Origin: Alphaproteobacteria bacterium
GTDB lineage: Bacteria > Pseudomonadota > Alphaproteobacteria > Micavibrionales > Micavibrionaceae
DNA: 64,000 nt
Assembly (NCBI GenBank): GCA_021775955.1
Contig: JAJFGU010000011.1
Coordinates: 62,001 to 126,000, forward strand
Direction: 5' to 3'
The position numbers and the translations under genes are program-made. The notes below the pieces were generated by a model. It was given only the letters and a program-made list of their open reading frames with translations, was not told the origin of the DNA and searched no databases. Of this stretch, positions 6,970-34,560 are shown one piece after another (positions within the stretch are counted from its first letter, which is position 1; each line of letters starts with the position of its first letter).

Positions 6970-9900
6970 TTATACGACAACCTGACCGTCATTCGTCGCA
7001 AGCTCGAGATCAAGTCCGGTAATACCTTCCAGCATCGCGATGGCCGTGGCGTTGGCAATATTGCCGCTACCGTTTTCATCGATTGAGATGGTGGTATCAC
7101 CAGCGTTTTCCGTCTTGAACACAAAATCATTAATGCTGTCCTGGATCGGATTATACTGGGTCAGCAGGGCTGAGATATCCAGCAAATCGCCTTCCGACAG
7201 ATCAAAATCTTTAATTGTGTCCAGACCGTCAAGAAGCGCTTCATATAAGAAAGCATCAGCACCGGAGCCACCATAAAGCTCGTCGTTGCCGGAGCCACCA
7301 TTGATGACGTCATCACCTTCCTGACCAAAGATCAGATCATTGCCAGCGCCGCCTGAGATGATGTCATCACCTCCGGTACGGCCCTCGCCCTGGCTGTCTT
7401 CCGATTCCTCGGACAAAGCCACAGCATTGGCGCGGATGTAAGCGATTGTATCGTCACGATCCCATGAAGCCGTATTGCCTTCACCGTTTTCAAGACGTTC
7501 AAACACTTCCCAGCCAGCGCCACCGTTGGTTGGTAAACCTTCTGCGGAAGCCAGGTCATCAGTAAAGAGAACATCACCAAAGATAATCTCGTCACCGTCT
7601 TTGCCCTGAAGCTCGTCGCCACCGGCAGCTGCCAGCAAGTTAAGCGGATTGGTGTTTTGCAAAGTATCATCAAGATCCATCGGATCATCAATTACGATCG
7701 CATCACCGGTTGCAATTTCATCCAACACATCTGCATCACTGACCGGAATATCAACACCGATGGCGATGACTTCACCGAAAGACTGCAAGCCACCGATTTC
7801 ATCCGTATTATCACCGAACGTGCCGTCACTGGTCGTAACATCGGTACCGGTAAGCTCAGCCAGAATAATAGCTTCTTCCTCAGCATTGTTACCCGGAGGA
7901 TTCTGCGCATTGCCATTGTCATCAGCATAACGGTTCGGCTGATCATCAGAGATGAAGTATGTCGTGGTAATAGCGCTGCCGTTAATCGGGCCTGGACCGT
8001 TCAACCAACCCAGAGCATCCTGCATCGGTGATTCATAATTGGTCAGACCGGAACCGTCGAGATTATCCAGGAAGTTTATTGCATCGCTTAGCGCATCAGC
8101 ATCTGAGAAATCGATGGTGATCATATCTTTGACATTGGTGCTGAAAGACACCATGTGCACCACGATGTTACCAGTTTGATAATCATCGAATTGTTGCATC
8201 AGATTCTCAACCGCGTCAGCCAAAATAGAGATTTTGGAGTTTGCATCTGTATTGCTACCCATGGAACCACTGGCATCCAGAATAAAGACAAAGTTGAAAT
8301 CCTGGTTCTGCTGCTCGCGGAAAGACCCACCGGCGTCACCGACAAGAATGTCATTGCCTTTCATGCCCATGATGATGCCTTCATCACCATTGACAAGATG
8401 CGGAACTTGCGAGCCCTCAACATCGTCAACATTGCGACCAACAATCAATTTCGGTGCAGCGCCCCATAGAGCCAGCTCTGCAACACTGCTGTCACCATCA
8501 TTATCTGTCAGAGTGTAATTAAAGACATCATGTGTTTCTGAAACCGGCGTGCCTTCAGTCTCTGCCCATACATTGTTGAGCAGCATGGAAGCGGCATCAT
8601 AATCACCGTCATTAGTAGATGAAATATTAACACTTTCAATCAGATCACCGAAATCGGAAGCATTAAGAGTGAACTCAAACATGCCGTTGTTGATTTCATT
8701 CGGTACGAATTGCTGCTCTCCGACCACTGTGGTGCCATCGGCAAGGGTGACGATGTAATCAACACCATGGTTGCCATCGTCGTTGTTGTCGCCAAGCTCA
8801 GCAATTTTAATGGTCACTTTACTGACATCTTCTGCAAAAGAAATGTCAAAGGCTTCACCTGCGGGCCAGATTTTTGTGCTGTCACCAGTATCGAGATTAT
8901 CAATACCAAGACCGGAGCCGGCAGATGTATCAACCCAGGAAATATCGAAGTTTCCTTGGTTGGCAACAGTAACAGTGACGCCATCTTTGGTAATTGAAGT
9001 CTGTTGACCGTTGGCATCGGAAGCAACCGGATCAAGATGGAACATCTCACCCTGTTCGCCAACAAGTGCGTCATTAAACAATGTGTAGTTATAGGTACCA
9101 TCGGAGAATATTTCCAGCTCACCGAAATCGCCGTCAATGGTAATTGACCCACCATCTGGTACATCTTTAACCGTTGCACCGAAGGAAACTTTCGTCACGG
9201 TGTTCGGCATATCGTTGCTGAGATCGTCTGCAGCGCCGGGGCCGCCATTGGCACCGGAGACCACATTGCCGTCCGTGCCGCCATCATCGGTATTGAACAT
9301 GTTCATGTCATCATGAGCGGTCAAGCCGTCATCAAGGACATTGACCGTGATAATACCAGTATCCGTATCGCCATCGCTGTCTGTTGCGGTGATGCCGAAC
9401 TCCATTGGAATATTATCGTTGTGGTCATTGGTATCAGGGTGATCCAGAACACCTTCGAGGGTGAATTTGTAATCACCGTTAGACTCGATCTTCAGGGTAA
9501 AGATAGTGTCACCACCGGCGCTACCAGTGTAAGTACCGGTACCGGCATTAAAACCAACATTCACCGGAACGCCATCACTTGTCAGGGCAATGCCGCTGAA
9601 GAATCCGCCATTTCCAGAGAAGCTTCCCGGTGTGTCAGCACCGAAATTAGCCTGAATTGAATCGCTGATCATCGTTGTCGGTGCCAGATTGGTTTCATCA
9701 ACCGTCACTTCTTCCGGCTGGACAAGAACAGGATCATCATCGGGCGTGACCCGCAGTACAATTTCACCAAACGCACTGGCGCGATTGTCGGTAAGATCTT
9801 TTTCGATGCCGTTGGTGTTTTGTTCAAACGCAACAGTCTCAACCTTCAGCGTGAAGCTGCCTGTGACGCCATCAGGAACATTAATACCCAGGCCAACAAG

Positions 9901-12900
9901 CTCGGCTGGCGTTAAAGTCCAGACACCGGCATTTTCAACACCGGCCGTCAACGTTGCACCCGGCGGCAGATCAGAAATTTTGATCGCTTCAATCACTTCC
10001 GAACCATCTGTGTCGTTTACAGACGTTGAGACTGTCAAAGAAATTAGAGAACCTTCCTCACCGTTTGCATTGCTTGTGTTCAGATTTGGAACATCGGCAA
10101 CCGCGTCAACGATGACATTAAATGAGTCTGTCGCTTGCGCTGTCAGATCTGGATTAGGACCAGGATCGGTCGCAGTCGCCGTGGCCACCATGCCTGTCAG
10201 ATCAATGTCACTGTCAGGATTTGGTGTGAACGTAAATACTGTGTTCAGGCTCGCGCCCGGCGCCAGTGTAATGCTCCAGGTTTGCGTGCCGGGGTTGTAA
10301 TTGCCAATCGGCGCAAAGAACGTACCCCAGGCTGGGTCAATACCGGTTACTTCAACCGTCAGGAACTCGCCCTGCGCAGGGTTAGCACCGAGGACAGCCG
10401 TAATCGGAACATCAACCGTGCCGTCTTCCTTGACACAAACATCTTCCACGCCGTTATTGACTTCAATTTCAGGTGGATTGATCTGTGGTTTCCAGGTCAG
10501 TTTGAATGGATCGGTTGCTTCATTGTTGTTATCTGCAAGATCAAACTCACCATCTGACACAGGATTTTCTGTGGTCAGAACTTTTGCCGTCAGATTCAGC
10601 ATACCGGAGAAATTCGGATCATCCGGTGTAATCGTCAGACCGATAATTTGTGCCGGGGTAAATGCCCAGGTACCGCCGCCTTGATCCGCACCCTGATTAA
10701 AGCTAAATCCGTTAAGCGGAACACCAGAGATTTGATATCCGGTGATACTTTCAGAACCGTCGAAATTATCGGTTCCCAACATGCCGACAACATCAACATC
10801 CAGCGTTGCGCCTTCCGCACCCATATCGTCATCAGCAACGATAGAAGGATCATCGGCAACAGCGTCCGTCGTAATGTTAAAGCCATCACTGGTTGAAGCA
10901 CTGTCACCAGGATTCGGGCCGCTTACTGTGGCTGTTACGTTCAAACCGTTCAGGTCAAGATCGCTCTCGGCCGGTGGTGAGAAGGTAAAACCATCATTAT
11001 AGTTTTGCTGACCAACAGGCAGTACCAGCTCAAATTCGCCCGGATTGCCAGTCGGAACCCATCCGGCACCGACAAAGCCCCAGCTTGGGTCAACACCATC
11101 TAAAGTAAGTGTCAGTGTTTCGTTTCCGTTACCACCTGCATAACCGGCAGTGACAGGAACAAAGACAGAGCCGTCTTCTTTTACTTGCACATCGTCAACA
11201 GCGTTATTGACTTCCAGCCTGACATCAACCGGTGGGAAGCCACCTTTTAATGTCAGCAGAGCTGTATCGGTATCAAAATCACCATCCTGCAGCGTATATT
11301 CAAACTGATCCTGCAGACATTCCGGTGCGTGATTTACAATCTCGACATCGTTCAAAATGAAAGAAGCGGGCTCAGTTGTTGAGAACACATCAAATCCAAC
11401 GATCTGATCGCCGAAGTCAGCAGCGCTCAGTTCAATCGTGATTCTGCCGTTAACCGGCACGGTCGTTCCGATATCAAACAGGAACGGAACGGCTGTGTTT
11501 GGATCACTTGCCAGATAGACATTAAAGTCGATAGAGTCATCGAGATTGTTCTGACCGATATCGGCCAGCGTAACAAGCACGACATCAGAAGCTGCAAATT
11601 CAACCTCGATTGTTTCACCAGAAGGCCATACCTTGTCAGAGCCACCAGCAACACCAATACCGTTTCCATCAGTTGGCACCCATGTCAGGTCTGATCCGTC
11701 ATCAGTAGAAACGGTAATACCGTTCTTGGTGAAGGAATCGGCAATCTGCGGAGAAACATCGCCTTCCACAGGGTTCAAAGATGTCGAGCTACCACCAGGA
11801 TTGGGGAACAATGTGTAGGTATATGTCCCGTCCGAAAACAGCTCAAGCTGGCCAAAATCACCATTAACGGTGTTAGAGCCGCCATCAGGAATAATAACCG
11901 CCGGGTTGCCACCAAAACTAACTTGCGTAACGGTGTTATCGACGTCTTCGCTGAGATCATCAGCAGCACCGGGGCCACCATTCAGACCGGTAACGACGTT
12001 ACCGTCGGTACCGCCATCAGCAACATTATAGTTGTTAAAGTCGTCATTGGCAGTCACAGCATCATCGGCAACGTTAACCGTAATCGTACCGCTGGCCGTA
12101 TCGCCATCATTGTCTACAATTTGAACACCGAATTGCAGAGAAATAACATCGTTAGGGTCATTCGGATCGTTGTGATCGAGCTGCTCAAATTGAGTAAAGC
12201 TGTAATCGCCATTGGCAGGATTAACCGTGATTTCAAAAACTTTGATGCCACCGGCAAAACCTTCATAGCCGCTGGTACCCACAGGGCTCACCACAATAGG
12301 TGTGCCGTTATGAGTCAGATTGCCACCAAGCAGTGAACCACCTTCGGCGAAATTGCCGTCAATCGTAACAGCGCCCGCACCATCATTACCAAAATCAACA
12401 TTCAGTGAGCCAGCAACATTGATCGGGCCGAGATTGGTTTCATCAATATTTTCAATACCGGAACCGATATCAGGCTGTCCCGGGAATTCAGGGCGATCAT
12501 CGATCACATTAATAACGATGTCAGTATCGACTGTATCGCCATCAAAATCTTCAACTTCAACACCAAAGTTCAGGGTAATCGTGTCACCAGGATTGGAGTG
12601 ATCAAGAGGCTCTAGCAAGGTAAATTCGTAATCGCCTGTATTACCATCAATTGTAATCTCAAATACGGGCGTAGCACCGGCCATACCAACATAGCCGCCA
12701 GGCGTTGCTGAAATAATCACAGGCACGCCGTTTGAACTTAAAACACCGCCTTCAAGATCGCCACCGGCGCTTGATGTGCCATTCTGGTTCAAGGAACCGG
12801 CACCGTCTTCACCAAAGTCGTGAACTACAGTTCCGTTGACAGCCGCAGGGCTCAGATTGTCTTCATCAACATCCAAAGCTGGAGGCTTAACGATAGAAGG

Positions 12901-14895
12901 AATGTCATCGGCAACAATAATCGTGATGGTTCCTGTATCGCTATCGCCATCACTGTCTTCAATCTGAACACCAAAGACCAATGAAATGACATCATTCGGG
13001 TCGTTCGGATCAGCGTGATCAAGAGGCTTAATAAGAGTAAATTCGTAATCGCCATTGGCAGGATTAACCGTCAACGTAAAGACGTCCATACCACCAGCCT
13101 GACCGACATAACCGCCGGCATTTGCTGTAACGATGACAGGAACGCTATTTGACGTCAGATTGCCGCCAAGCAGTGAGCCGCCTTCAAAGAAACTACCATC
13201 CGGCGTTACGCCGCCCGGGCCGTCACCACCGAAATCAACATTCAGTGAGCCACCGACAACAATCGGGCCGAGATTGGTTTCATCGATACTTTCAATACCG
13301 GCACCAATTTCTGGCTCCTCATCAACGAAACGAGGGCCATCGTCTTTTACTTCAATCATGACTGTGGTTTGATCGGTGTCACCATCGAAATCGGTAATCT
13401 GCACACCAAAGCTCAGCATGATAACATCACCCGGATCGCTGTGATCCAAAGGCTCATGCAGCGTAAAGATGAAATCGCCGTTGCTCGGATCGATCGTAAT
13501 ATCAAAGACAGGCGTAGCACCGGCCACACCTTCATAACCATCTGCGGTTTGTGAAATAATAACAGGAACGCCACCGGAGCTTAAAACGCCGGCTTCCAGA
13601 TCACCGCCGGCGCCAGATGTGCCGTCCGGCTCAATAGAGCCCGCACCGTCTTCACCAAAGTCATGTACGATGCTGCCGTTAACAGCTGTCGGGCCGCCGA
13701 GATTGTCCTCGTCCACCATTTCTGTAGCGGGCTTTTCAATAGAAGGTATGTCATCTGCGACATTCACAATAACTTCTGTGGTGACTAAATCATTGTCGCT
13801 GTCTTTGATGTCAAAACCAAAGGTCAACGTAATAATGTCATTCGGGTCATTCGGATCGTTATGATCGAGCTGCTCGAATTGTGTAAAGGTGAAGTCTCCG
13901 GTGATAGGATCATCAATAACGATGTCGAAAACTTTTGTACCGCCGGCAAAACCTTCATAGCCTGTGCCGGTATCGCTCACGATAACGGGAACGCCGTTTG
14001 ATGTCAGATTGCCGCCAAGCAAAGAACCGCTTTCGCTAAAACTGTTGTTGGACATGACCGAACCGGGGCCATCATTGCCAAAATCAAAATCCAGTTGATC
14101 AGAAATTGAAATCGGGCCGAGATTGGTTTCATCGATTGATCTTTCAATCGGGTCGCCTGCCTCAGGTGAGTCGTCGCGCGGACCTTGCGGCTCGTCCTCA
14201 TCCGGTAATAGCGTGTCGTTTTGAAACTCAACGCCATATTGAAGCTGCGTTGGATCAATCGGGCCGACATCTTCAATAGGATTAATCGGACCAGCGGCAA
14301 AACGGCTTTGAATGCCGTAGCCTGTATTTGAATTACCGTCATCACCGGCAGCGGGCTCAATTTCAGCAACACGCTCAGCAGTTTCTTCTTCGCCAGCGGC
14401 AGGCTCAATTTTTGCAACTTGCTCGGCTTGTGTATCTGCTTCTACCTGTTCGCTAACATCTGCTTCGGGTGCTACTTCAGCTGTACGAATTTCGGCCTGT
14501 GGTTTTTCCAGAAGCTCTTCGTCAGGTTCATCCTGCGCCATGCTTAAGGTCGTAATAAGTTCAGTCGGAGAAATAACTGTGCCATCAGCTAACGTTAAAG
14601 CGGGAGGAAATTCATCGCCAAGTGCGCCTTCAAAATCTTTCAATGTGACTGAGGAGTTATTTGAAAACTTTATAAGAAGGTCGCCATCTTGCTCGTAAGT
14701 TGATTTCACAACGTCCGGCTCAAAATCAAAAATATAGGTTTGACCAGGCTCAACCGTAATAGGAGGCATGTCCATATTGTCACCCGGCTGGGTGATGATA
14801 ATAGGAGCACCTGTATATATAGGTGCTTCTTGGTTTGCCACTATTTCTATGTTGGTTGTTTCTTCAACAGATTGTGTATTTTTTTCCTCAGCCAT
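6970..14895 (-). CDS. Giant LapA-like RTX adhesin with VWA domain
   Basis: A 2,641-aa acidic, Asp/Gly/Asn-rich surface adhesin, inferred to be exported by the type I system encoded just downstream. In order it shows an N-terminal prefix domain (about residues 20-115, ending VISPTELITTL); an acidic linker with PAAG at residues 165-168 and 181-184; five tandem repeats of about 140 aa beginning IDETNLGP or VDEDNL (about 253-950), resembling T1SS-143/VCBS repeats, with a further DETNLAP unit near 1729; two long VCBS-like units starting DDAVTANDDF and DDGLTAHDDM; Ig-like units with VKEDG; a VWA domain (about 2195-2385) with MIDAS motif DASGS; RTX nonapeptides (GGAGNDLIFG) near 2514; and a VCA0849-type C-terminal secretion signal. 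The start has Shine-Dalgarno AAGGAGAG. PAAG resembles the dialanine motif that LapG cuts in LapA adhesins, but no lapG or lapD gene is in the window. Confidence 0.94.
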   Translation of the reverse strand: MAEEKNTQSVEETTNIEIVANQEAPIYTGAPIIITQPGDNMDMPPITVEPGQTYIFDFEPDVVKSTYEQDGDLLIKFSNNSSVTLKDFEGALGDEFPPALTLADGTVISPTELITTLSMAQDEPDEELLEKPQAEIRTAEVAPEADVSEQVEADTQAEQVAKIEPAAGEEETAERVAEIEPAAGDDGNSNTGYGIQSRFAAGPINPIEDVGPIDPTQLQYGVEFQNDTLLPDEDEPQGPRDDSPEAGDPIERSIDETNLGPISISDQLDFDFGNDGPGSVMSNNSFSESGSLLGGNLTSNGVPVIVSDTGTGYEGFAGGTKVFDIVIDDPITGDFTFTQFEQLDHNDPNDPNDIITLTFGFDIKDSDNDLVTTEVIVNVADDIPSIEKPATEMVDEDNLGGPTAVNGSIVHDFGEDGAGSIEPDGTSGAGGDLEAGVLSSGGVPVIISQTADGYEGVAGATPVFDITIDPSNGDFIFTLHEPLDHSDPGDVIMLSFGVQITDFDGDTDQTTVMIEVKDDGPRFVDEEPEIGAGIESIDETNLGPIVVGGSLNVDFGGDGPGGVTPDGSFFEGGSLLGGNLTSNSVPVIVTANAGGYVGQAGGMDVFTLTVNPANGDYEFTLIKPLDHADPNDPNDVISLVFGVQIEDSDGDSDTGTITIIVADDIPSIVKPPALDVDEDNLSPAAVNGTVVHDFGEDGAGSLNQNGTSSAGGDLEGGVLSSNGVPVIISATPGGYVGMAGATPVFEITIDGNTGDYEFTLLEPLDHSNPGDTITLNFGVEVEDFDGDTVDTDIVINVIDDRPEFPGQPDIGSGIENIDETNLGPINVAGSLNVDFGNDGAGAVTIDGNFAEGGSLLGGNLTHNGTPIVVSPVGTSGYEGFAGGIKVFEITVNPANGDYSFTQFEQLDHNDPNDPNDVISLQFGVQIVDNDGDTASGTITVNVADDAVTANDDFNNYNVADGGTDGNVVTGLNGGPGAADDLSEDVDNTVTQVSFGGNPAVIIPDGGSNTVNGDFGQLELFSDGTYTYTLFPNPGGSSTSLNPVEGDVSPQIADSFTKNGITVSTDDGSDLTWVPTDGNGIGVAGGSDKVWPSGETIEVEFAASDVVLVTLADIGQNNLDDSIDFNVYLASDPNTAVPFLFDIGTTVPVNGRITIELSAADFGDQIVGFDVFSTTEPASFILNDVEIVNHAPECLQDQFEYTLQDGDFDTDTALLTLKGGFPPVDVRLEVNNAVDDVQVKEDGSVFVPVTAGYAGGNGNETLTLTLDGVDPSWGFVGAGWVPTGNPGEFELVLPVGQQNYNDGFTFSPPAESDLDLNGLNVTATVSGPNPGDSASTSDGFNITTDAVADDPSIVADDDMGAEGATLDVDVVGMLGTDNFDGSESITGYQISGVPLNGFSFNQGADQGGGTWAFTPAQIIGLTITPDDPNFSGMLNLTAKVLTTENPVSDGEFDLADNNNEATDPFKLTWKPQINPPEIEVNNGVEDVCVKEDGTVDVPITAVLGANPAQGEFLTVEVTGIDPAWGTFFAPIGNYNPGTQTWSITLAPGASLNTVFTFTPNPDSDIDLTGMVATATATDPGPNPDLTAQATDSFNVIVDAVADVPNLNTSNANGEEGSLISLTVSTSVNDTDGSEVIEAIKISDLPPGATLTAGVENAGVWTLTPAELVGLGINVPDGVTGSFTLKVETVAFEQNTNGIEKDLTDNRASAFGEIVLRVTPDDDPVLVQPEEVTVDETNLAPTTMISDSIQANFGADTPGSFSGNGGFFSGIALTSDGVPVNVGFNAGTGTYTGSAGGDTIFTLKIESNGDYKFTLEGVLDHPDTNDHNDNIPMEFGITATDSDGDTDTGIITVNVLDDGLTAHDDMNMFNTDDGGTDGNVVSGANGGPGAADDLSNDMPNTVTKVSFGATVKDVPDGGSITIDGDFGELEIFSDGTYNYTLFNDALVGEQGEMFHLDPVASDANGQQTSITKDGVTVTVANQGNFDISWVDTSAGSGLGIDNLDTGDSTKIWPAGEAFDISFAEDVSKVTIKIAELGDNNDDGNHGVDYIVTLADGTTVVGEQQFVPNEINNGMFEFTLNASDFGDLIESVNISSTNDGDYDAASMLLNNVWAETEGTPVSETHDVFNYTLTDNDGDSSVAELALWGAAPKLIVGRNVDDVEGSQVPHLVNGDEGIIMGMKGNDILVGDAGGSFREQQNQDFNFVFILDASGSMGSNTDANSKISILADAVENLMQQFDDYQTGNIVVHMVSFSTNVKDMITIDFSDADALSDAINFLDNLDGSGLTNYESPMQDALGWLNGPGPINGSAITTTYFISDDQPNRYADDNGNAQNPPGNNAEEEAIILAELTGTDVTTSDGTFGDNTDEIGGLQSFGEVIAIGVDIPVSDADVLDEIATGDAIVIDDPMDLDDTLQNTNPLNLLAAAGGDELQGKDGDEIIFGDVLFTDDLASAEGLPTNGGAGWEVFERLENGEGNTASWDRDDTIAYIRANAVALSEESEDSQGEGRTGGDDIISGGAGNDLIFGQEGDDVINGGSGNDELYGGSGADAFLYEALLDGLDTIKDFDLSEGDLLDISALLTQYNPIQDSINDFVFKTENAGDTTISIDENGSGNIANATAIAMLEGITGLDLELATNDGQVVV

Positions 14896-14945
14896 TGAAA
14901 GCTCTCCTTACTTTGCAAATATAGGGTCTTATTAGGGACCCATCA

Positions 14946-15025
14946 TTAATCATTTCTTAACGGAATATACAAATTATTAATCATATGTTAAGGTCTTGTC
15001 AACTGTTATGTTAATAGAAAGTTAA
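14946..15025. promoter_or_regulatory. Three perfect CtrA-type boxes (TTAA-N7-TTAA)
   Basis: Perfect TTAA-N7-TTAA sites occur at 14946-14960, 14977-14991 and 15011-15025, with starts 31 and 34 bp apart, or about three helical turns. This is the full binding site of the alphaproteobacterial cell-cycle and motility regulator CtrA. The middle box overlaps the -10 and spacer of the predicted adhesin promoter, and the third lies just upstream of its -35. I searched the other larger intergenic regions by eye and found no other full box. The site pattern is seen directly; that CtrA binds here is inference. Confidence 0.7.
14974..15002 (-). promoter_or_regulatory. Predicted sigma70 promoter of the adhesin gene
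   Basis: On the minus strand there is a perfect -35 TTGACA (14997-15002), a 17-base spacer and a -10-like TAATAA (14974-14979). This would give a 5' leader of about 70 bases before the ATG at 14895. The spacer and -10 overlap the middle CtrA box, a geometry that would suit repression or tight switching. Confidence 0.6.
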
Positions 15026-15107
15026 ATTATTTTATATAATTATGTAAATCAATGGGTTACACCTATAAAAAATCTACCTTTTTAGGCCTTTCATTCTTAC
15101 GAATTAT

Positions 15108-15307
15108 GATTCGTTTTAGCGTTTTTTAGACGAATCACAGTTACGAATCCATCGATTCTACGATTTTTGCCCTTATAGCTGATTCGAATCCGGCTCGAAT
15201 CGCATCAAAAAGAGAGGAGAATCGATTCGATTTGATCAAGAATCGGCAAAAATAGATTCAGATTCGGGTTAAAAAGAATCAATTCCAGCTCGATTTTCTC
15301 CAGATTC
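15108..15307. promoter_or_regulatory. Cluster of 14 GANTC (CcrM-type) methylation sites
   Basis: GAATC or GATTC begins at 15108, 15132, 15145, 15154, 15181, 15186, 15197, 15219, 15224, 15240, 15255, 15261, 15276 and 15303. Five more GANTC sites begin at 15390, 15401, 15483, 15488 and 15502. About one is expected in 200 bp by chance. GANTC is the target of the cell-cycle methyltransferase CcrM in Alphaproteobacteria, so this stretch may report replication passage to the adjacent adhesin promoter. No open reading frame explains the repetition. Confidence 0.75.
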
Positions 15308-15353
15308 TGAAAAGAAAGTGATTTTTTTTGCCTCCTGCTAAATTTTTTTTTGC

Positions 15354-15373
15354 TGTGGACAAGCTGTGGGCAA
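15354..15373. promoter_or_regulatory. Two tandem DnaA-box-like 9-mers
   Basis: TGTGGACAA (15354-15362) and TGTGGGCAA (15365-15373) differ from the DnaA box TGTGGATAA by one and two bases, and start 11 bp apart. They lie beside the GANTC cluster and AT-rich DNA. They could be weak DnaA sites, or part of a regulatory or origin-like region. The mismatches keep this a weak call. Confidence 0.3.
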
Positions 15374-15535
15374 ACTTGTGATTAATTTTGATTCATAATG
15401 GAATCAGAAACATTTGATCATAGTAATAAAGTTTTAACAGGGCCTGTCGAAACGAAAAAAATTTACAAAATTTAAAAAAAAGGACTCGACTCCCGAATTC
15501 TGAATCATTAAATCTAAAACTGTCTTCAGGGCATC

Positions 15536-16060
15536 GCTTCATAACGAAGCAACTCAGTGACCTTCGTGAGGAGAGAGAGTTTGCCCAGACAGGGTGCATT
15601 GGTCTGCATCCGGGTTTTTGGAGCTACGAAGCCCCATTTTTTGTAAGACTTCGGTCTTTATAGAGATTGGGATTTTGCCAGAGGCTTAAAGGGAGCGTAA
15701 AGTATCACGCCTCGCCGTCGCTAAAAGAAGTAGACCTGTGGTCGCGCACAAAAAAACGTTAGATAGCACGGCAAGGGCGGATATGTTTGGAATATGCTCC
15801 TGAAACGCTAGTTCTTTCGCGTAGAGCTAGACGAGTGGTTGATCGCCACGATAAAATTACGGATGAGGGGTTCATTCGTGGGAAAGGGGAACTAAAACGG
15901 CCAGCTACCGCTGTTCCCCAGACCTGATCCGAGTATTCCTGCGGCCTTTAACTTGTTAAAGTACCCAGGAACATGCTTCCCAAAAAGGCCCCGGTGCCTT
16001 GTTCTGGATTTAATCTTCGGATCATATTTGGAACATGGGTGCCGGGGTTCTTTTATGCCT
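15536..16060 (+). ncRNA. Candidate structured non-coding RNA of about 0.5 kb, unknown family
   Basis: No convincing reading frame covers this stretch, but it contains many exact or near-exact helices: a UUCG-capped hairpin (15645-15658); 15714-15723 with 15764-15772; 15808-15815 with 15823-15830; 15860-15868 with 15923-15931 enclosing a 7-bp helix 15886-15892 with 15913-15919; a perfect hairpin 15946-15961; and a terminator-like stem at the end. I looked for the conserved motifs of tmRNA, RNase P RNA, SRP RNA, 6S RNA and group II intron domain V and did not find them. The plus strand is preferred because the last hairpin is followed by T-rich sequence. The 5' end is a guess. Confidence 0.35.
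15984..16053 (+). terminator. Long terminator-like hairpin
   Basis: The stem pairs roughly 15984-16004 with 16031-16053, with a core of CCCCGG against CCGGGG. TTCTTTTATGCCTTTTTT follows on the plus strand. The minus strand also shows a T-run after the stem, so it could act both ways, insulating the adhesin regulatory region from the response-regulator operon. Confidence 0.5.
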
Positions 16061-16224
16061 TTTTTCTGCCCCCCTTTTATCTAAAATACCCATTAGTATA
16101 TAATGCTTTAGTATGTGCAGCTTTAAATACGGCTTTGCACCTTCACCGCTATTCCTGTTATAATTATATGAATTGTTGAGTAGAAAAGCTGTGTCTTGAC
16201 CAGCGTTAGGCTATTAAAAGTAAT

Positions 16225-16719
16225 ATGGGATTTAAGTTTGAAAAATTAAACGTCCTGATCGTCGAAGACACGGCACCAATGTGCAAATTGGTTTGCTCCG
16301 TCCTGGAAACTTTAGGGGTTGGGACCGTCCACACGGCAGAGGACGGCGAAGAAGGCTTTATCAAATTCTGTAAGGAAAAGCCTGACATCGTTATTACAGA
16401 CTGGCATATGGTGCCAACCAATGGTTTGGATCTTGTTGAAAAAATACGAAAAGACAAAAAGTCTCCCAACAAAACGGTTCCCATTGTCATGATGACCGGC
16501 TACAGCGCGATGCCGCGCGTATCACAGGCGCGCGATTTCGGGACCACTGAATTTCTGGTAAAACCCTTTTCTGCAAATGATTTGGCAAGGCGCATTGCCT
16601 ATGTCATCAACAAGCCAAGAGACTTTATCGACTCTACTGATTTCTTCGGGCCTGACCGCAGGCGGCGCAAAATGGATAACTATAATGGACCACAGCGACG
16701 AACCGAGGATCCAAGCTAA
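16225..16719 (+). CDS. Single-domain CheY-like response regulator with GPDRRR tail
   Basis: A 164-aa receiver protein. Acidic-pocket residues E14/D15, phospho-acceptor D59 (VITDWHM), T91 (MMTG) and K113 (VKPF) are all present, so it should be phosphorylatable. There is no DNA-binding or enzymatic output domain. After the receiver, a basic tail holds FFGPDRRRRK and GPQRR. Tails of this GPDRRR kind are frequent in alphaproteobacterial proteins, but their role is unknown to me. The partner kinase is not in the window. The next gene, 52 bp downstream on the same strand, probably forms an operon with it. There is no strong Shine-Dalgarno sequence before the ATG. Output is likely through protein-protein contact. 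Confidence 0.9.
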   Translation: MGFKFEKLNVLIVEDTAPMCKLVCSVLETLGVGTVHTAEDGEEGFIKFCKEKPDIVITDWHMVPTNGLDLVEKIRKDKKSPNKTVPIVMMTGYSAMPRVSQARDFGTTEFLVKPFSANDLARRIAYVINKPRDFIDSTDFFGPDRRRRKMDNYNGPQRRTEDPS

Positions 16720-16771
16720 AGTGTAATAGATTAAAAGACACACATGTGTATACTAATTGCTGCTGCGTATC

Positions 16772-17287
16772 ATGGAAAATCAAACACATATCCAAATGAA
16801 CGAACCTTCCGAAGCGAAAGTCATAAAGGCTGATACCTCATTGCAATCCAGGGTCGGAACAGGGCCTCTGGATGAGCGTGTTGTTGAGAAATGCCAGGAT
16901 GTTATGGACAACAATGATGTTGATTTTGCACCGCTGGCGATGGAATTCCTCGATAAGCTGGCTGAAGCCATAAAAAACGCAAGAGCCGGTGATCTGGAGC
17001 TCGATAAGGCGGTGGGAGCGATGACGGAACCCGTCATGCAACTTAAGGCCAACGCCGCTACCTTTCGCTATAATCTGGTTGGAAATCTTGCCAATGTCAT
17101 GCTGAGCTTTCTGGAGGCCGTCAAGGAAATGGACAAAACGGTTCTTGATATCGTTGACGCACACCACAAAACGCTTTCTGCGATTGTTATCAAGAAAATG
17201 AGCGGTGATGGTGGCGCCCACGGCAAACAGCTTGAGGATGAGCTGAAAGGCGCGTGCAAGCGCTATTTCTCCAAGAAAACGGGCTAG
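16772..17287 (+). CDS. Hypothetical helical protein paired with a response regulator
   Basis: I do not recognise this 171-aa protein. I start it at the ATG at 16772 (MENQTHIQMNEPSEAK); an in-frame TTG at 16757 is less likely. The first 35 residues look disordered. The rest is predicted helical and amphipathic (FAPLAMEFLDKLAEAIKNA, VMLSFLEAVKEMDKTVLDIVDAHHKTLSAIV), with no signal peptide or membrane segment and a basic C-terminus. Its position after a stand-alone receiver gene suggests a signalling partner such as a scaffold or phosphotransfer-like protein. H149 and H150 in DAHHKTL are the only obvious paired histidines, and I do not claim they are phosphorylated. Confidence 0.8.
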   Translation: MENQTHIQMNEPSEAKVIKADTSLQSRVGTGPLDERVVEKCQDVMDNNDVDFAPLAMEFLDKLAEAIKNARAGDLELDKAVGAMTEPVMQLKANAATFRYNLVGNLANVMLSFLEAVKEMDKTVLDIVDAHHKTLSAIVIKKMSGDGGAHGKQLEDELKGACKRYFSKKTG

Positions 17288-26699: not shown

Positions 26700-29600
26700 T
26701 TAAACGATGATGCTTTGATCGGTAATGAGGTTGCCTCCGCTGACAAGATCGTTAATGCTGAGGCCGACATTCGTGTCTTTCAGGATTGCCACGGTTTCGA
26801 AGTCATCACCGGCACCGTCAGCATTGATCTGCACTTCAGTATCATCACCATTGGTGACAAGCTGGATAAAGTCATTCAGGTCATCGCCAGCGTCAAAGCC
26901 TTCGAGAACATCAGTGATATTGAGAGCATCGCCCTCACCCAGATCGAAATCGGTAATTTCATCGGTGCTGCCGTCGATTTGCTGGAAGACAAACTGGTCG
27001 GCCCCTGCGCCGCCGGTCATGATATCCAGGCCGGTGCCGCCAATAAGGATGTCATCGCCATTGCCGCCATCAAGAACATCATTCAGCGTAAATTCTTCGG
27101 TGGTATAAGTACCTTCGATGAATTCTATGTGATAATCACTGCCGCGTTCCTCGGCAAAGAACAATATGCTGTCAAAACCGCCAGCGACAATAATATCAAA
27201 TTCAACTTTGCCGTCGGTTTGTGAACCGTGGATCGGATCGATTGCATCGACAGAGCCACTCGCCACAACATCACCATCGCGCAGAGCAACCCAGTCGGCT
27301 GTTTCCACGCCATCAGCAACGCCTTCGAGGAACAAGGAGCGCAGACCAACTGTAGCCTGATCAACCAACAATCCACCAAAGTCGACTAAAATACCTTCAC
27401 CATCGTCTAACTCGCTGTCACCATGGCCTTTTACGCCAATACCGCGATTAATTCCGTGGCGTACATCTGTGGCGCCTCTGCCGAGCTTGCCGTTATCCAA
27501 ATCCTTGAAGAAATCGACATCGACCTGATGGCCATCAAGATTTTGTAGCCACAGCTCACCAAATTTGAAATCTCTCTTGCCGACGTCTTTGCCACCGAGC
27601 AGGAAGGTTTTTTCGGTGATAACCGGAGCGATTACTTCATCGCCGCCGTAGAGAATATCGTTGCCGTTTTCACCAAAGATCAAATCATTACCCGCGCCGC
27701 CATCAAGAATATCGTCGCCGCCCGGATTGGTGTCTCCGCCCATAACCATGGTCTCGGTTTCCTGATTGGCTGTGTCGAACCAGCCTTGCTTGCTGTAATT
27801 CCATTTGGTCAGGAAGCCATCGTCATTATAATCGGTTTTGAGATTGGCCATCGGGTGCAACCACACGCCGATCATGTCTTCAAAGGACACGCCGGTCCAG
27901 TCGGACGAATCGCCGTGCAAAGGCACATGATCAACAACGTCGCTGGCATCCATGGAGAAACTAAAGACATGATGACCGTCTCCATTCACTGTGGCCGAGA
28001 TATCGATAAACGGATTATCATCCGCCAGAGATGTTAAAATCTGATCCGGGGCCTGTTTACCTCTGGCTGAATCACCATCCTTAAAGGAAGAGAAATTGTT
28101 TTTACCGTTATAGCCATAGGCGCTGACAACCGGCTCTCCGCCGCTGTTATCGAAGTAAAACAGTGCCATTTCGCCGGCATGGCCTTTCGGATTGGGGCCA
28201 TCATTGATCGCCAGTGTAAAGCCATCGGTTGTCTTGCGGCCCGGTGCGTCGCTGATCACCATTTCAAAGCTGAATGAATCGGTTGTTTCGTTGTAATTGA
28301 TCGAAACATCCTTGATATCACCGGCGCGCGCGCTGCCCGGAGGGTTTTCGACATTATATTTATGAATAATTTCGGGACCGCCCGGCATACCCGGAATTGT
28401 CTGACCGGTTTCACCAAACAGTGTATCGTCGCCGTCCTGACCGTTGAGCATGTCGTTGCCACTATTGCCGAGCAGGATATCATCGCTCTCAAGACCGTAG
28501 ACCTCATCGTCACCGCCCAGCGCATCAATCACATCTTCTTCCGGCGTGCCGAAGAGAACGTCATCAAATTCCGTCGGGCCGACCGGGTCGATATCAACCG
28601 GACTAATTATAATATTGACGGTGCCGATATCGCTGCCGCCATTGCCATCGAGCAAAGTGTAATCAAAACTGTCAGCGCCATCAAAGCCGGCTGCCGGAGT
28701 ATAGGTGAAGTCACCATCCGCCAGCAATTCAACCGTACCGCCATTGGCGGTCGTAAACATGTCAGGCGTTACGCTAAGAATATCGCCATCAACATCGCTG
28801 TCATTGCCCAATACATTATCGCTTACAGCCATATCTTCATCGGTTGAGATATTGTCATCCTGCGCCACCGGATCATCATTGATTGCATTGACCGTGATGT
28901 TGACCGTGGCAAGATCCGAGCCGCCATTGCCGTCAAGCGCGGTGTAGCTAAAGCTATCCAGGCCATTGAAGTCAGCAGCAGGGGTATAGGTGAAATCGCC
29001 ATTGGCCTGCAGAACGACCAGGCCGCCATTAATTGTGCCGAGTGTTATTGGTGCAACGCTCAAAGTATCACCGTCGGCGTCGCTGTCATTGCTTAAGATA
29101 TTGCCACTAACGGCCATATCTTCATCGGTTGAGATATTGTCATCGAGCGCCACCGGATCGTCATTAATCAAAGCCACCGTAATGTTGACCGTTGCGGTAT
29201 CACTGGCGCCATTGCCATCCAGGACCGTGTAATCGAAGCTGTCTGCACCATTAAATTCAGCAGCCGGGGTGTAAGTGAAATCGCCATTGGCCAGTAACGT
29301 CACCATACCGCCATTGACGGTGGTTAATGTCTGCGGTGTAACAGTAAGCGTATCGCCATCAACATCGTTGTCATTGCCAAGGACGTTACCATTCGCTGTC
29401 GTGTCTTCATCGGTTGTAACAAAATCATCCTGCGCCACCGGATCATCATTAATGCCATCGAGCACGATATTGACCATAGCTGTATCGCTACCGCCATTGC
29501 CGTCAAGCGCGGTGTAGCTAAAGCTATCCAGGCCGTTAAAGTCGGCCACTGGTGTGTAAGTGAAATCACCATTGGCCAAAAGAACAACTGTACCGCCATG

Positions 29601-32510
29601 AAGCGTTGTTATGGTGTCCGGTGTCACGCTTAAGGTATCGCCATCGACATCGCTATCATTGGCCAGAAGATTGCCATTCACCTGCATATCCTCATCGCCG
29701 GTAAAGCTATCATCCTGTGCCACCGGTTCATCGTTTACCGGATTAATCGTGATGTTTACGGTTCCGGTATCAGAGCCACCCTGGCCGTCTATCAATGTGT
29801 AATCGAAGCTATCGGCACCATTAAAGTCGGCTGTTGGCGTGTAGGTGAAATTACCATTGGCAAACAGTGTGACCGTTCCGCCATTGGCCGTTGTTAAGTT
29901 CGCCGATATAACAGCCAGGCTATCACCATCAACATCGCTGTCATTGGTAATCACATTGCCGCTAACGGCAATGTCTTCATCGGTTGTCACCGCATCATTT
30001 TGTGCCACCGGATCATCGTTGACTGGATTGATTGTGATATCGACTGTTCCTGTGTCGCTGCCGCCCTGACCATCGATCACGGTGTAATCAAAGCTGTCTG
30101 CGCCGTTGAAATCGGCTGCCGGTGTGTACGTGAAATCTCCGTTGGAAAGTAATGTTACCGTTCCACCACCCACGGTGCTTAGTGTTGCAGGCGTAACGCT
30201 TAAGGTATTTCCATCAACGTCGCTGTCATTGGTTAAAACATTACCATCCGCAGACATATCTTCATCTGTGGTGATAGCATCATCGACCGCCACCGGATCA
30301 TCATTAATGGCATTAACCGTGATATTAACGGTGCCTGTATCACTGCCGCCATTGCCATCGATCACGTTGTAATCAAAACTATCAGCGCCATTGAAATCAG
30401 CGGCCGGCGTATAGGTGAAATCACCATTGGTCAGTAAATTTACGATACCGCCATTGGCTGTAAAGAATGTGGCCGGTGTTACGCTTAAAGAGGGGCTTTC
30501 AACATCGCTATCATTCGTCAGCACATTGCCGCCTGTTGCGACGTCCTCGTCTGTCGTAACGTTGTCATCCTGTGCGACCGGATCGTCATTAATCGGATTG
30601 ACAGTGATATTGACGGTTCCGGTATCAAAGCCACCATTGCCATCGACAAGTGTATAATCAAAGCTATCGGCGCCGTTAAAATCGCCCGCCGGAGTGTAGG
30701 TGAAATCACCATTCGCCAGTAATGTGACCGTACCGCCATTTGCCGTGCTCAGAGTCGTTGGTGTAACGCCAAGCGTATCACCATCGATATCGCTGTCGTT
30801 GCCCAGAACATTTCCATTTGTCGCGGTGTCTTCGTTGGTTGTTAGAGAATCATCCCCGGCGACTGGATCATCATTGATTGAATTGACCGTAATATTGACT
30901 GCGCCGAGGTCAATACCACCATTGCCGTCGACCAATTGGTAGACAAAGCTATCCACGCCGTTAAAGTCTGCCGCAGGCGTATAAGTAAAGTCGCCATTGG
31001 CAAGAAGCGTGACCGTGCCGCCACCCGTTGTCGTCAGAGAGGCCGGTGTTACGCTTAAGACATCACCATCAACGTCGCTGTCATTGCCCAGGACATTGCC
31101 ATTCGTGGCTGTATCTTCATTTGTTGTAACGCTATCATCACCAGCAACCGGGTCATCATTCACCGGAGCTATCGTAACCGTTACCATGCCGGTGTCACTG
31201 CCGCCATTGCCGTCGATGATCGTATAGTTAAAAATATCAATGCCGTTATAGTCAGGTGCCGGTGTATAGGTGAAGTCACCGTTTGCCAGCAATTCAACTA
31301 TGCCACCATTGGCCGTGGTGAAGCTCGCCGGAACAACGCTTAGAATATCGCCGTCAATATCGCTGTCATTTGTCACGAGATTTCCGCTACTCGCCGTGTC
31401 CTCTACTGTGTTCGAGGCATCAGCTTGCGCATGCGGATCGTCATTAACCGGATTGATTGTGATATTGACGGTTCCGGTATCGGAGCCGCCCTGGCCGTCC
31501 ACCACGATGTAATCAAAGCTGTCTGCTCCGTTGAAATCCGTAGCCGGTGTGTAAGTAAAGTCGCCACCGGCCAAAAGAACAACGATGCCGCCATTGGCCG
31601 TTGTAAATGAAGCAGGTGTCACGCTTAAAATGTCACCATCAGCATCCGTGTCATTACCCAAAACATTACCGTTTGCTTCGACATCTTCGTCAGTCGTTGC
31701 AACATCGTCCCCGGCAACCGGATCGGTATTTCCTTGCGGCGGTCCCTGTATGGTCCTCAGATCAAAAGTAGTGCCGTTTGAAAACTCAAGTGTGTCAATT
31801 CCGCTATCGGCTGCATCAAACTGGCCTTGAATGATAATCGTGCCAACGCCGCCAACCGTAATTTCAAGATTATTGCCGTTGGTTACAAAAGCAAGATTAG
31901 AAAACACTATGCCCGGAGGAAGTTCGATAACATTTGTGTCACTGCTGGAAGCTTCAATAACCGTGTCGTTACCGGTTCCGGCAACATACGTATCATCGCC
32001 TGTGCCACCAATCAGAATATCGTCTTCGGTACCACCGTCGAGCGTATCATTACCATCACCGCCGTTAATAATGTCATTGCCTGCTTCGCCGCCGAGAAAA
32101 TCATCGCCGGGACCACCGTCAAGAATATCTTCACCGGCGCCACCCAGAACAGTATCATTGCCAACATTGGCCCATAGAATATCATTACCAGCACCGCCCA
32201 GAATAACGATATCGCCCAGGGAAAAATTCGTGCTGGAAAGATCAATAATGTCGCCGCCATTACCAGCCAGGAACACCTCGATATTTGAAACCACCTGATT
32301 GCCCATATCATCTTCGATGAAAAGAGCGTCCCCTGCATTGGTCATGAAAAGTGTGTCAGTACCGCCTAAACCATCATAGATGAAGGAATTTACGTTCTTT
32401 GTTTCATTTACAATTTCAATGATTTCGCCGCTATAGGCATTGACCAATGTCGTCGTTAGCTGACCCAGTGTGCCGAAAAAGAATATGGTATCGTCATTAT
32501 TAGTAGCCAT
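26700..32510 (-). CDS. Large type I secreted RTX protein with eleven 95-aa tandem repeats
   Basis: A 1,936-aa acidic extracellular protein. In order: an N-terminal domain (MATNNDDTIFFFGTLGQ), RTX nonapeptides (about residues 90-185), eleven repeats of 95 aa (about 258-1310) each with T-x-E-D...GNVLGNDSDVDGD and FTYTPAADFNGADSF, which are cadherin/Ig-like tandem-95 repeats, RTX again (about 1312-1370), an unrecognised domain with DGPNPKGHAGEMALFYFD (about 1375-1580), RTX, another unrecognised domain (about 1635-1800, GGKDVGKRDFKFGELWLQ), and final RTX plus a VCA0849-type secretion signal. Ends and internal domain match the next gene upstream (32944-34560). There is no PAAG motif, so it may be released rather than retained. 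Exporter presumed shared with 1.5-6.7 kb. Confidence 0.93.
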   Translation of the reverse strand: MATNNDDTIFFFGTLGQLTTTLVNAYSGEIIEIVNETKNVNSFIYDGLGGTDTLFMTNAGDALFIEDDMGNQVVSNIEVFLAGNGGDIIDLSSTNFSLGDIVILGGAGNDILWANVGNDTVLGGAGEDILDGGPGDDFLGGEAGNDIINGGDGNDTLDGGTEDDILIGGTGDDTYVAGTGNDTVIEASSSDTNVIELPPGIVFSNLAFVTNGNNLEITVGGVGTIIIQGQFDAADSGIDTLEFSNGTTFDLRTIQGPPQGNTDPVAGDDVATTDEDVEANGNVLGNDTDADGDILSVTPASFTTANGGIVVLLAGGDFTYTPATDFNGADSFDYIVVDGQGGSDTGTVNITINPVNDDPHAQADASNTVEDTASSGNLVTNDSDIDGDILSVVPASFTTANGGIVELLANGDFTYTPAPDYNGIDIFNYTIIDGNGGSDTGMVTVTIAPVNDDPVAGDDSVTTNEDTATNGNVLGNDSDVDGDVLSVTPASLTTTGGGTVTLLANGDFTYTPAADFNGVDSFVYQLVDGNGGIDLGAVNITVNSINDDPVAGDDSLTTNEDTATNGNVLGNDSDIDGDTLGVTPTTLSTANGGTVTLLANGDFTYTPAGDFNGADSFDYTLVDGNGGFDTGTVNITVNPINDDPVAQDDNVTTDEDVATGGNVLTNDSDVESPSLSVTPATFFTANGGIVNLLTNGDFTYTPAADFNGADSFDYNVIDGNGGSDTGTVNITVNAINDDPVAVDDAITTDEDMSADGNVLTNDSDVDGNTLSVTPATLSTVGGGTVTLLSNGDFTYTPAADFNGADSFDYTVIDGQGGSDTGTVDITINPVNDDPVAQNDAVTTDEDIAVSGNVITNDSDVDGDSLAVISANLTTANGGTVTLFANGNFTYTPTADFNGADSFDYTLIDGQGGSDTGTVNITINPVNDEPVAQDDSFTGDEDMQVNGNLLANDSDVDGDTLSVTPDTITTLHGGTVVLLANGDFTYTPVADFNGLDSFSYTALDGNGGSDTAMVNIVLDGINDDPVAQDDFVTTDEDTTANGNVLGNDNDVDGDTLTVTPQTLTTVNGGMVTLLANGDFTYTPAAEFNGADSFDYTVLDGNGASDTATVNITVALINDDPVALDDNISTDEDMAVSGNILSNDSDADGDTLSVAPITLGTINGGLVVLQANGDFTYTPAADFNGLDSFSYTALDGNGGSDLATVNITVNAINDDPVAQDDNISTDEDMAVSDNVLGNDSDVDGDILSVTPDMFTTANGGTVELLADGDFTYTPAAGFDGADSFDYTLLDGNGGSDIGTVNIIISPVDIDPVGPTEFDDVLFGTPEEDVIDALGGDDEVYGLESDDILLGNSGNDMLNGQDGDDTLFGETGQTIPGMPGGPEIIHKYNVENPPGSARAGDIKDVSINYNETTDSFSFEMVISDAPGRKTTDGFTLAINDGPNPKGHAGEMALFYFDNSGGEPVVSAYGYNGKNNFSSFKDGDSARGKQAPDQILTSLADDNPFIDISATVNGDGHHVFSFSMDASDVVDHVPLHGDSSDWTGVSFEDMIGVWLHPMANLKTDYNDDGFLTKWNYSKQGWFDTANQETETMVMGGDTNPGGDDILDGGAGNDLIFGENGNDILYGGDEVIAPVITEKTFLLGGKDVGKRDFKFGELWLQNLDGHQVDVDFFKDLDNGKLGRGATDVRHGINRGIGVKGHGDSELDDGEGILVDFGGLLVDQATVGLRSLFLEGVADGVETADWVALRDGDVVASGSVDAIDPIHGSQTDGKVEFDIIVAGGFDSILFFAEERGSDYHIEFIEGTYTTEEFTLNDVLDGGNGDDILIGGTGLDIMTGGAGADQFVFQQIDGSTDEITDFDLGEGDALNITDVLEGFDAGDDLNDFIQLVTNGDDTEVQINADGAGDDFETVAILKDTNVGLSINDLVSGGNLITDQSIIV
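28580..31715 (-). repeat. Eleven tandem 285-bp units inside the RTX gene
   Basis: The tandem-95 repeats keep an exact 285-bp period at DNA level. Homologous sites recur on the plus strand at 28705, 28990, 29275, 29845, 30415, 30700 and 31270. The similarity should allow copy-number change by recombination or slippage without loss of frame. Confidence 0.9.
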
Positions 32511-32800
32511 TATTACACCCCACCTGGCTTTACGCTTTACTCTTTACTTTTGTTTAGTCCTAAATTTTGCAGGACTTTTCCCCGAAACATTAGTTTCTAT
32601 AATAATGTTAAGTGAATTTAGTTAATATTTTATGTAATTTATAGCGAGAATCTAATACTTTGGTATAGCACTGATTTTATTGACTTTTTTTGTATAAAAA
32701 ATGATGAAAATTGCAGCCGATTTGCCAAGCAAATCCAGCAATACTTAATATTTCCGGATATTTGACCGGAAAAGTTAACAATTTCGTGATTTCTTAAATA

Positions 32801-32944
32801 GGGCGTGCCATCAATTGAAGGATTTTGCGGCGAAAAGCGTGCGTTTCGAGAACCGGAAGCGTAAATGTATTAAACATACATGCGGACCGGAAGCGTAGAA
32901 ACGCGCGCTTTGTAGCCCAAAAGACAATAATTGATGGTACGTCC
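32801..32944. repeat. 144-bp nested palindrome between the RTX paralogues
   Basis: The outer arms 32801-32816 and 32929-32944 pair over 16 bp with two G-T wobbles. The inner arms 32834-32847 and 32898-32911 pair over 14 bp with one wobble. Two copies of ACCGGAAGCGTA (32852 and 32886) and a small central stem lie within. The right arm touches the stop codon of the smaller RTX gene. The rest of the gap (32511-32800) is AT-rich with no gene seen. It could be a terminator, an RNA stabiliser or an inserted palindromic element. Confidence 0.8.
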
Positions 32945-34560
32945 TAAAGAGGAACGGTCTGATCAATCACCAGATTGCCGTCACTAATAAGGTCGTTTAG
33001 ACCCGTGGCAAGGGCAATATCTGCCATCACCGCAATCGTCGTATAGGCCGCGCCGCTACCGCCAGTATCCACCTGAACTTCGGTATCGGTGCCGCTAATA
33101 ACAAATTGCAGGAAGTCATTCAGATCATCCACGCCCTCATTAAAGCCAGAGAGGATATCGGTTAAATTGAGAATATCATTGCCTGCACCGGATACAAAAT
33201 CGGCAATAGTATCGACATTGCCATCCAGTTGTTTAATCACGAATTGATCGGATCCTATGCCACCATTTAATATATCGGCTCCTGTGCCACCGATTAAAAT
33301 ATCATCGCCACCTTCACCAAAAAGCTGATCATCGCCCGCGCCACCAATTAATTTGTCGTTTCCGCCTGTCGTTGGATCATCCCCGCCCACAAAAACAGTT
33401 TGTGTAGCCGAGTTTATTGTGTCGTACCAGCCATGGCCCATCGAACTCCACCCAGTTAAAAATCCACTCCCGTCATATGCGCTCGTAAGATCCGCCATCG
33501 GGTGCAGCCATATTCCAACCAGTCCTTCAAAGGTCATACCTGTCCAGTCAGCAGGATCACCATAAAGCGGCACATGATTGATGATCGTGCTTGCATCCAT
33601 TGTAAATTGGAAGACATGATCGCCATTGGTATTAATAAGAGCTGATATATCCGTAAAGGGATGACCGGCGGCCAGTGATGTTAGTATCTGATCCGGCGCT
33701 TGTATGCCGGCAGCGGGATCACCATCTTTAAAGCTGGAAAAATTATTAAGCCCGTTATAACCGTAAACGCTGACAATCGGCGCTACGCCGCTATTATCAA
33801 AGTAAAACAGAGCCATTTCCCCGGCAACGCCTTTGGGATTCGGACCGTTGTTAAGAGCCAGCGTAAAGCCTTGCGATGTCTTACCCGGCGGATCGGTCAC
33901 GATCAGCTTAAAATGAAATTCATTGGTTGTGACATTATACCTCGTAGCAACATGTTGAATATCGCCACCCGCAGGATGGCTAACAGGATTATTGATCCCA
34001 AACTGATGGATCACTGCGGGGCCACCGGGTAAGCCAGGAATTGTAAAACCGGATTCTCCGTAAAGAATATCATCTTCAGACCCGCCATCGACGGTATCAT
34101 CGCCGGCGCCGCCTTTGATAATATCGACATCGGACTCACCGCCGACAAAATCGTTGCCCGGCCCGCCGTCAATAATGTCATTACCGGCGCCGCCCAAAAT
34201 AGTATCATTGCCGACATTGGACCATAAAATATCATCACCCGCGCCGCCCAGAATAACGATATCGCCCAGGGAGAAATTCGTGCTGGAAAGGTTGATAATG
34301 TCGCCACCATCTCCGGCCAGAAAAAGCTCAATGCTTGTGACAACCTGATTGCCCAGATTATCCTCAATAAAAAGCGCGTCCCCAAGGCTGCTCATAAAAA
34401 GTGTATCGTTGCCACCAAGACCGTCATAGATGAGGTTATTAACGTTCTTCTCTTCGTCTACAATTTCGATGATTTCGCCGCTATAGGCATTGACCAATGT
34501 CGTCGTCAGCTGACCCAGTGTGCCGAAAAAAAATATTGTGTCGTCATTATTAGTAGCCAT
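32944..34560 (-). CDS. Short RTX paralogue of the large secreted protein
   Basis: A 538-aa version of the 1,936-aa neighbour without the tandem-95 repeats. The first 170 residues are almost identical to it (same MATNNDDTIFFFGTLGQ start and RTX block). Then come the shared unrecognised domain (about 175-390, NGPNPKGVAGEMALFYFD...YGYNGLNNFSSFKDGD), a short RTX block (GGNDKLIGGAGDDQLFGEGG) and the C-terminal type I signal (FVIKQLDGNVDTIADFVSG). DNA identity at the 5' ends is also very high, indicating a recent duplication or gene conversion. It is read towards the larger gene, with the palindrome at 32801-32944 between them. Probably a secreted calcium-binding surface protein. Confidence 0.92.
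   Translation of the reverse strand: MATNNDDTIFFFGTLGQLTTTLVNAYSGEIIEIVDEEKNVNNLIYDGLGGNDTLFMSSLGDALFIEDNLGNQVVTSIELFLAGDGGDIINLSSTNFSLGDIVILGGAGDDILWSNVGNDTILGGAGNDIIDGGPGNDFVGGESDVDIIKGGAGDDTVDGGSEDDILYGESGFTIPGLPGGPAVIHQFGINNPVSHPAGGDIQHVATRYNVTTNEFHFKLIVTDPPGKTSQGFTLALNNGPNPKGVAGEMALFYFDNSGVAPIVSVYGYNGLNNFSSFKDGDPAAGIQAPDQILTSLAAGHPFTDISALINTNGDHVFQFTMDASTIINHVPLYGDPADWTGMTFEGLVGIWLHPMADLTSAYDGSGFLTGWSSMGHGWYDTINSATQTVFVGGDDPTTGGNDKLIGGAGDDQLFGEGGDDILIGGTGADILNGGIGSDQFVIKQLDGNVDTIADFVSGAGNDILNLTDILSGFNEGVDDLNDFLQFVISGTDTEVQVDTGGSGAAYTTIAVMADIALATGLNDLISDGNLVIDQTVPL

Follow-up and report, generated by a model that had tools for sequence, protein, structure and literature searches.

The locus was analysed in a window of 64 kb (contig C3:62001-126000) of genome G000, an assembly of 2.32 Mb in 25 contigs with a completeness of 99.96%. 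Between the gene for a large repeat protein and the gene for a single-domain response regulator lies an intergenic element. It consists of a dense array of GANTC sites, a triplet of predicted DnaA boxes, a spacer bringing the boxes ~118 bp from a GACTCGAC(TC) core, and then a structured non-coding RNA. The coordinates are collected in Table 1. The response regulator has paralogues that form a small family, and genomes of the order contain as many as six members. At 26700-34560 two more large repeat proteins are encoded, RTX/VCBS-like and nearly identical at the N-terminus; they may be sibling adhesins.

Table 1. Features at the locus, in window coordinates.
Feature	Position	Strand	Basis or remark
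Large repeat protein/adhesin (DUF5801 repeats, VWA, RTX), left neighbour	6970..14895	-	neighbour only
Adhesin promoter, sigma-70-like (TTGACA-18-AATAAT); not within the array	14973..15002	-	promoter scan
GANTC array, 14 CcrM sites, all GAWTC	15108..15307	.	direct count
Predicted DnaA-box triplet, head to tail	15354..15385	+	TGTGGACAA 15354-15362, TGTGGGCAA 15365-15373, weak TGTGATTAA 15377-15385
GATTC (15390) and GAATC (15401), between DnaA boxes and core	15390..15405	.	both kept in same genus
AT-rich block GTAATAA(A/T)nTTTnAACAG...TTACAAAA...AAAAAA, probable promoter region	15423..15482	+	upstream of core, conserved in alignments
Tandem CcrM sites GACTCGACTC, near-invariant core	15483..15492	+	at or just before the RNA start
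Structured non-coding RNA, ~0.55 kb	15490..16057	+	conserved noncoding, covariance model R1, fold z; 5' end approximate
H-type pseudoknot	15737..15759	+	UGUG 15737-15740/CACA 15747-15750; GCG 15744-15746/CGU 15757-15759; A-rich loop between; covariation
7-bp hairpin	15859..15879	+	arms 15859-15865, 15873-15879; loop around GGGGUUC; 7/7 pairs covary
Long G+C-rich hairpin, then T-rich stretch; terminator-like	15983..16057	+	alignments and fold; shape kept, sequence changing
Single-domain response regulator, right neighbour	16225..16719	+	adjoins element in most loci
176-aa protein, no Pfam match, right neighbour	16757..17287	+	conserved beside response regulator

The GANTC array and the proposed control region

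The array was first noticed in a preliminary description of the window, and direct counting confirmed its site numbers. Fourteen GAWTC sites start within 200 bp, at 15108, 15132, 15145, 15154, 15181, 15186, 15197, 15219, 15224, 15240, 15255, 15261, 15276 and 15303. The total rises to 19 GANTC in 400 bp with those at 15390, 15401, 15483, 15488 and 15502. The back-to-back palindromes described earlier are both present as abutting pairs, GATTCGAATC at 15181 and GAATCGATTC at 15219. No open reading frame of 60 aa or more was found over 15108-15307, in agreement with the earlier view that the stretch is non-coding. The expectation of about one site that had been quoted was slightly generous, since the genome's own rate corresponds to ~0.4 per 200 bp; the excess itself is real. 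The other 200-bp stretches of the window held at most 3 GANTC away from the cluster. Distances of 11 bp and abutting sites were in excess among the spacings. Helical phasing was not robust for any of three periods (p ~0.03-0.05 for the best; 10.5 bp not significant). The DNA beside the array is AT-rich, with 23% GC at 15000-15100.

GANTC sites were counted per 200 bp over 1.59 Mb of the 2.32 Mb genome (69%; contig C17 to 100 kb). The motif is avoided genome-wide, with 2.09 sites per kb compared to 3.09 under a second-order Markov model. No other 200-bp stretch in this 69% of the genome is as dense as the array, whose 14 sites are followed by runners-up of 9, 7 and 6. In 1.5 Mb of second-order Markov sequence the maximum was 5. 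Triplets of GAWTC with gaps of up to 15 bp occur at 14 places in the whole genome, and 6 of these are inside the array. The second and third clusters adjoin cell-cycle genes. The second spans the start of ccrM (C19:227955; L001:1294-1495), and nine GANTC in 200 bp at this position suggest CcrM autoregulation. The third, with seven sites, lies in the rnpB-mraW gap (C15:80953-81120), upstream of mraW at the head of the division/cell-wall cluster. The fourth is found at C19:180413.

A canonical CcrM is encoded in the genome. The single N6_N4-type methyltransferase match is located beside rnhB, in the order rnhB-ccrM, has a RAMA domain at its C-terminal end and gave 511 bits against CcrMI of Caulobacter (PDB 6pbd). 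The presence of a CcrM homologue, on which the preliminary description had made its reading depend, is thus established, and the array sites are predicted to be CcrM-methylated. GcrA is also encoded (139 bits). The flanks of the core GACTCGACTC (other strand GAGTCGAGTC) break the rule of YGAKTCK, the GcrA motif of Caulobacter, which is matched by sites of the array, for example TGATTCG at 15107; a GcrA-dependent promoter would need such a site near the transcription start.

Two of the three DnaA boxes are imperfect. The middle box at 15365 lies 118 bp upstream of the core at 15483. Among 30 loci from related genomes, a box scoring 8/9 or 9/9 to TGTGGATAA was found in 26, and random 260-bp stretches reach a score of 8 in 2.3% of cases. 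In many cases the box belongs to a head-to-tail series of three TGTG units spaced at 11-12 bp. The GACTCGA core is present in 25 of the 30 loci, and its distance to the box is 116-119 bp in most of them, though the DNA between is poorly conserved. This fixed distance implies that array, boxes and RNA form one unit. The array would then be the distal part of a composite, conserved intergenic control region at 15108-15492, in which the boxes are predicted to bind DnaA. The promoter scan gave no convincing sigma-70 promoter at a fixed position at the core.

Over the 470 bp that precede the RNA core, the 30 loci hold 259 GANTC, compared to 20-67 for seven composition-matched palindromes. Among these controls TCNGA is the most frequent, but its count is raised by overlap with abutting GATTC/GAATC pairs. 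At least six GANTC in 200 bp were found in 15 of the 30 loci. In pairwise alignments GANTC sites were retained more often than other pentamers, with 10/19 against 14% for G000-G001 and 13/15 against 44% for G121-G031; the smallest gap was 5/8 against 55% for G010-G089. The methylation-state switch or protein-binding array proposed earlier would fit this conservation above background. A dense array is unnecessary for the RNA, because the f7 genomes, G035, G007, G009 and G061 carry the RNA with few sites (1-5).

The structured RNA and its distribution

A search of related genomes with 14900-16230 located the conserved part on the right side, at 15340-16057. Identity was 75-81% in three genomes of the same genus, and short anchored matches were obtained in other genera. 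The relatives with matches carry names of the type 'Micavibrio sp.' or are alphaproteobacterial metagenome-assembled genomes. Near-invariant blocks in the alignments are GACTCGACTC, GTGGTCGCGCAC-N3-AAAACG, CCACGATAAATAA, the GGGGTTC hairpin, CTTCCCAAAAGG and the terminator-like hairpin with its T-rich DNA. This last hairpin resembles an intrinsic terminator in the fold model and may form the end of the RNA. It is missed by a simple terminator scan because its interrupted stem falls outside the scan rule.

Compensatory changes support the helices, as in a structured RNA. In 30 sequences the pseudoknot and the 7-bp hairpin showed 98% standard pairs, 70 double-changed cells versus 17.3 for shuffled alignments and a score for covariation of 0.51 versus 0.23, where alignment A2 was fitted to a model already containing the hairpin and the GCG/CGU helix, not the UGUG/CACA stem. 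Shifting the pairing partners abolished the signal, and RNAalifold independently predicted the first pseudoknot stem and the hairpin. The fold z of the 572-nt plus strand was -5.2 and that of the opposite strand -3.6. One relative (L006, G012) has the pseudoknot motif twice, the additional copy (GTGGTTGCGCAC...AAAAAACG) being inserted in the RNA ~70-100 bp after its GTGTTCGCACAC motif.

No family among the Rfam 15 covariance models matched the RNA. RNase P RNA and tmRNA were rejected as identities, both being found elsewhere in G000, and a protein-coding reading of 15490-16057 was rejected on frames that are not conserved between relatives. We take the RNA as a new structured RNA family. Two RNase P RNA matches were obtained in G000, at C15:81163-81547 (-) and C13:3228-3661 (+) (L226, L227; 311 and 223 bits); the second is unusual and may come from a contaminant contig.

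Covariance model R1 of the RNA core matched 47 of 142 genomes of the order (Micavibrionales) at E <=0.01. Strong matches (E <1e-7) were found in 39 Micavibrionales genomes, in a single copy each. Over 385 genomes across the class, good scores were restricted to members of the order, with weak matches in G394 and G147. A pattern match in G047 (L075) was dismissed as chance without homology. The RNA motif also occurs in 28 named contigs, several of which (e.g. Pseudomonas, Burkholderia, Clostridia) lack all other features and likewise represent chance matches. Five complete or near-complete Micavibrionaceae genomes (G024, G080, G025, G026 and G027), including two single-contig g22 genomes, have kept the response regulator locus. 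RNA, array and DnaA boxes were all absent upstream of the orthologous response regulator in these five.

Proposed control of the RNA and alternative explanations

The position of the locus on the chromosome was examined by GC skew in five contig sets, of which four were informative (G073 was uninformative). The skew is negative throughout the window, without a flip at the array. On C3 the cumulative minimum lies at 172475, 95 kb from the array, and parAB-gidB-gidA is found at 158.5-163 kb. In G120, G125 and G002 the minus-to-plus flip lies ~50-90 kb from the element, on the same side. The locus is thus origin-proximal in four genomes, 50-95 kb from the GC-skew origin. The earlier suggestion of protected DNA near an origin stands as far as proximity is concerned and falls as regards a place at the origin itself. 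Hemimethylation in Caulobacter affects GANTC sites close to the origin in ~80% of cells, and those close to the terminus in less than 10% (PMC3973325). An array near the origin would therefore report the state of replication.

We consider it probable, with some reservation, that 15108-15492 is a methylation- and DnaA-linked control region governing the structured RNA at ~15490-16057. The proposal draws on the observed anatomy, conservation, co-occurrence, RNA structure and position and on the presence of ccrM and gcrA; from these we infer methylation, DnaA binding, promoter position, timing and any function of the RNA. Going by the layout, synthesis of the RNA would be turned on and off in time with replication of the chromosome. 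DnaA would start replication, and the fork would reach the origin-proximal locus early. The GANTC sites of the array would then turn hemimethylated and remain so until CcrM returns late in the cycle. A methylation-sensitive reader of the array, for which GcrA with sigma-70 is a known candidate and some other factor is conceivable, would set RNA transcription jointly with DnaA. The RNA would be made in a window of time tied to replication and terminate at its own hairpin. Points against the proposal are the core without a match to YGAKTCK, the variable density of the array, the lack of robust phasing and the lack of a fixed sigma-70 promoter at the core.

A more elaborate variant can be put forward as a tentative idea, rather doubtful in our estimate. 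A SeqA-like protein recognizing hemimethylated sites would coat the GANTC array after passage of the fork and, together with DnaA at its fixed distance, time the large pseudoknotted RNA, with feedback from this RNA to either replication or the predatory cell cycle of the Micavibrio-like bacteria.

A role of the locus in titrating DnaA or timing replication, comparable to datA or DARS and exerted by the DNA instead of the RNA, is unlikely. In that case, once the fork has passed, DnaA or a SeqA-like protein would be bound and set free again by the boxes and the array. Tandem DnaA boxes with CcrM sites, their conserved geometry and the closeness to the origin would suit such a locus, but there are about three boxes, the spacing to the RNA core is fixed and the adjoining 0.55 kb is under selection for RNA structure. 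The fixed spacing favours a promoter function.

Control of the RNA also accounts better for the array than the link to the adhesin made in the preliminary description. A methylation switch of the adhesin gene, with phase variation like that of pap, was considered because the edge of the array is 213 bp from the adhesin start and the left neighbour is adhesin-like in most loci. The adhesin gene, however, is preceded by a separate sigma-70-like promoter that does not overlap the array, and the fixed geometry faces the RNA side. In G015, G079, G028, G032, G055 and G043 the left neighbour is an aldehyde dehydrogenase, and the first four of these keep 7-14 GANTC without the adhesin (12 in G015 and 14 in G079). 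The array does not primarily belong to the adhesin, and the switch is disfavoured as quite improbable.

Still less credit can be given to the array being all or part of the chromosome origin (oriC) and containing an RNA like CcnA. A cluster of DnaA boxes, AT-rich DNA and GANTC sites are all present, and an RNA at the origin of Caulobacter provides a precedent (PMC8959179). The skew minimum is, however, not at the locus, parAB (C3:158.5-160.4 kb) is nearer to the flip, and several complete relatives have lost the element. An origin at the array was rejected by GC skew in all four informative contig sets; the locus is probably not oriC because the skew puts the origin 50-95 kb away.

That the array is a functionless by-product of relaxed GANTC avoidance or of local mutation bias in an AT-rich spacer is barely credible: the motif is avoided genome-wide and tolerated in intergenic DNA (PMC3973325), but the density is far above that of any other intergenic region in the 1.59 Mb read, matched palindromes are not enriched in the 30 loci and the sites are conserved above background.

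Comparison with known systems

A limited literature search, which is no proof of absence, found no Micavibrio RNA and no comparable GANTC array. New relative to the literature searched are the density of the array, the DnaA-box geometry and the RNA family.

The oriC of E. coli contains a cluster of Dam-methylated GATC sites bound by SeqA, and datA is a second E. coli locus for comparison. Dense methylation sites beside DnaA boxes are common to E. coli and the present locus. The difference is that Dam, GATC and SeqA operate in E. coli, whereas CcrM and GANTC are concerned here and the locus is not at the skew origin.

Accounts of CcrM control mostly deal with promoters that have a single GANTC or a few. 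The CcrM/GcrA promoters of Caulobacter (PMC7987155, PMC7403470) resemble the present locus in having GANTC upstream of a transcript in a genome encoding CcrM and GcrA; one or a few sites suffice there, compared to 14 in 200 bp here, and the core found here does not fit YGAKTCK. If the proposal is true, a conserved array of up to 14 sites per 200 bp, DnaA boxes at a fixed distance and a new structured RNA would make up a natural replication clock based on methylation density. In a lineage that is little understood and in part predatory, a large RNA without a known family would also become part of the cell cycle.

At the origin of Caulobacter lies CcnA, a non-coding RNA of the cell cycle (PMC8959179). 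Like the RNA described here, it is alphaproteobacterial, near the origin and associated with DnaA boxes. CcnA is 182 nt long, lies inside oriC and is controlled by CtrA (PMC8959179), whereas the present RNA is ~550 nt long, lies 50-95 kb from the origin and has a GANTC array. Compared by location and length, the two RNAs are not the same.

The repABC replicons of Alphaproteobacteria have a GANTC-rich promoter for the counter-transcribed RNA repE and a GANTC-rich origin (PMC6090056). In both cases CcrM sites crowd the control region of an RNA, which is regulatory and linked to replication in repABC and may be so here. The general kind of arrangement is already known, because the repE promoter (PMC6090056) and CcnA (PMC8959179) exist. 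repABC is, however, a plasmid or chromid origin with RepABC, whereas the element described here is chromosomal, has DnaA boxes and a long structured RNA, carries no rep genes and lies away from the origin.
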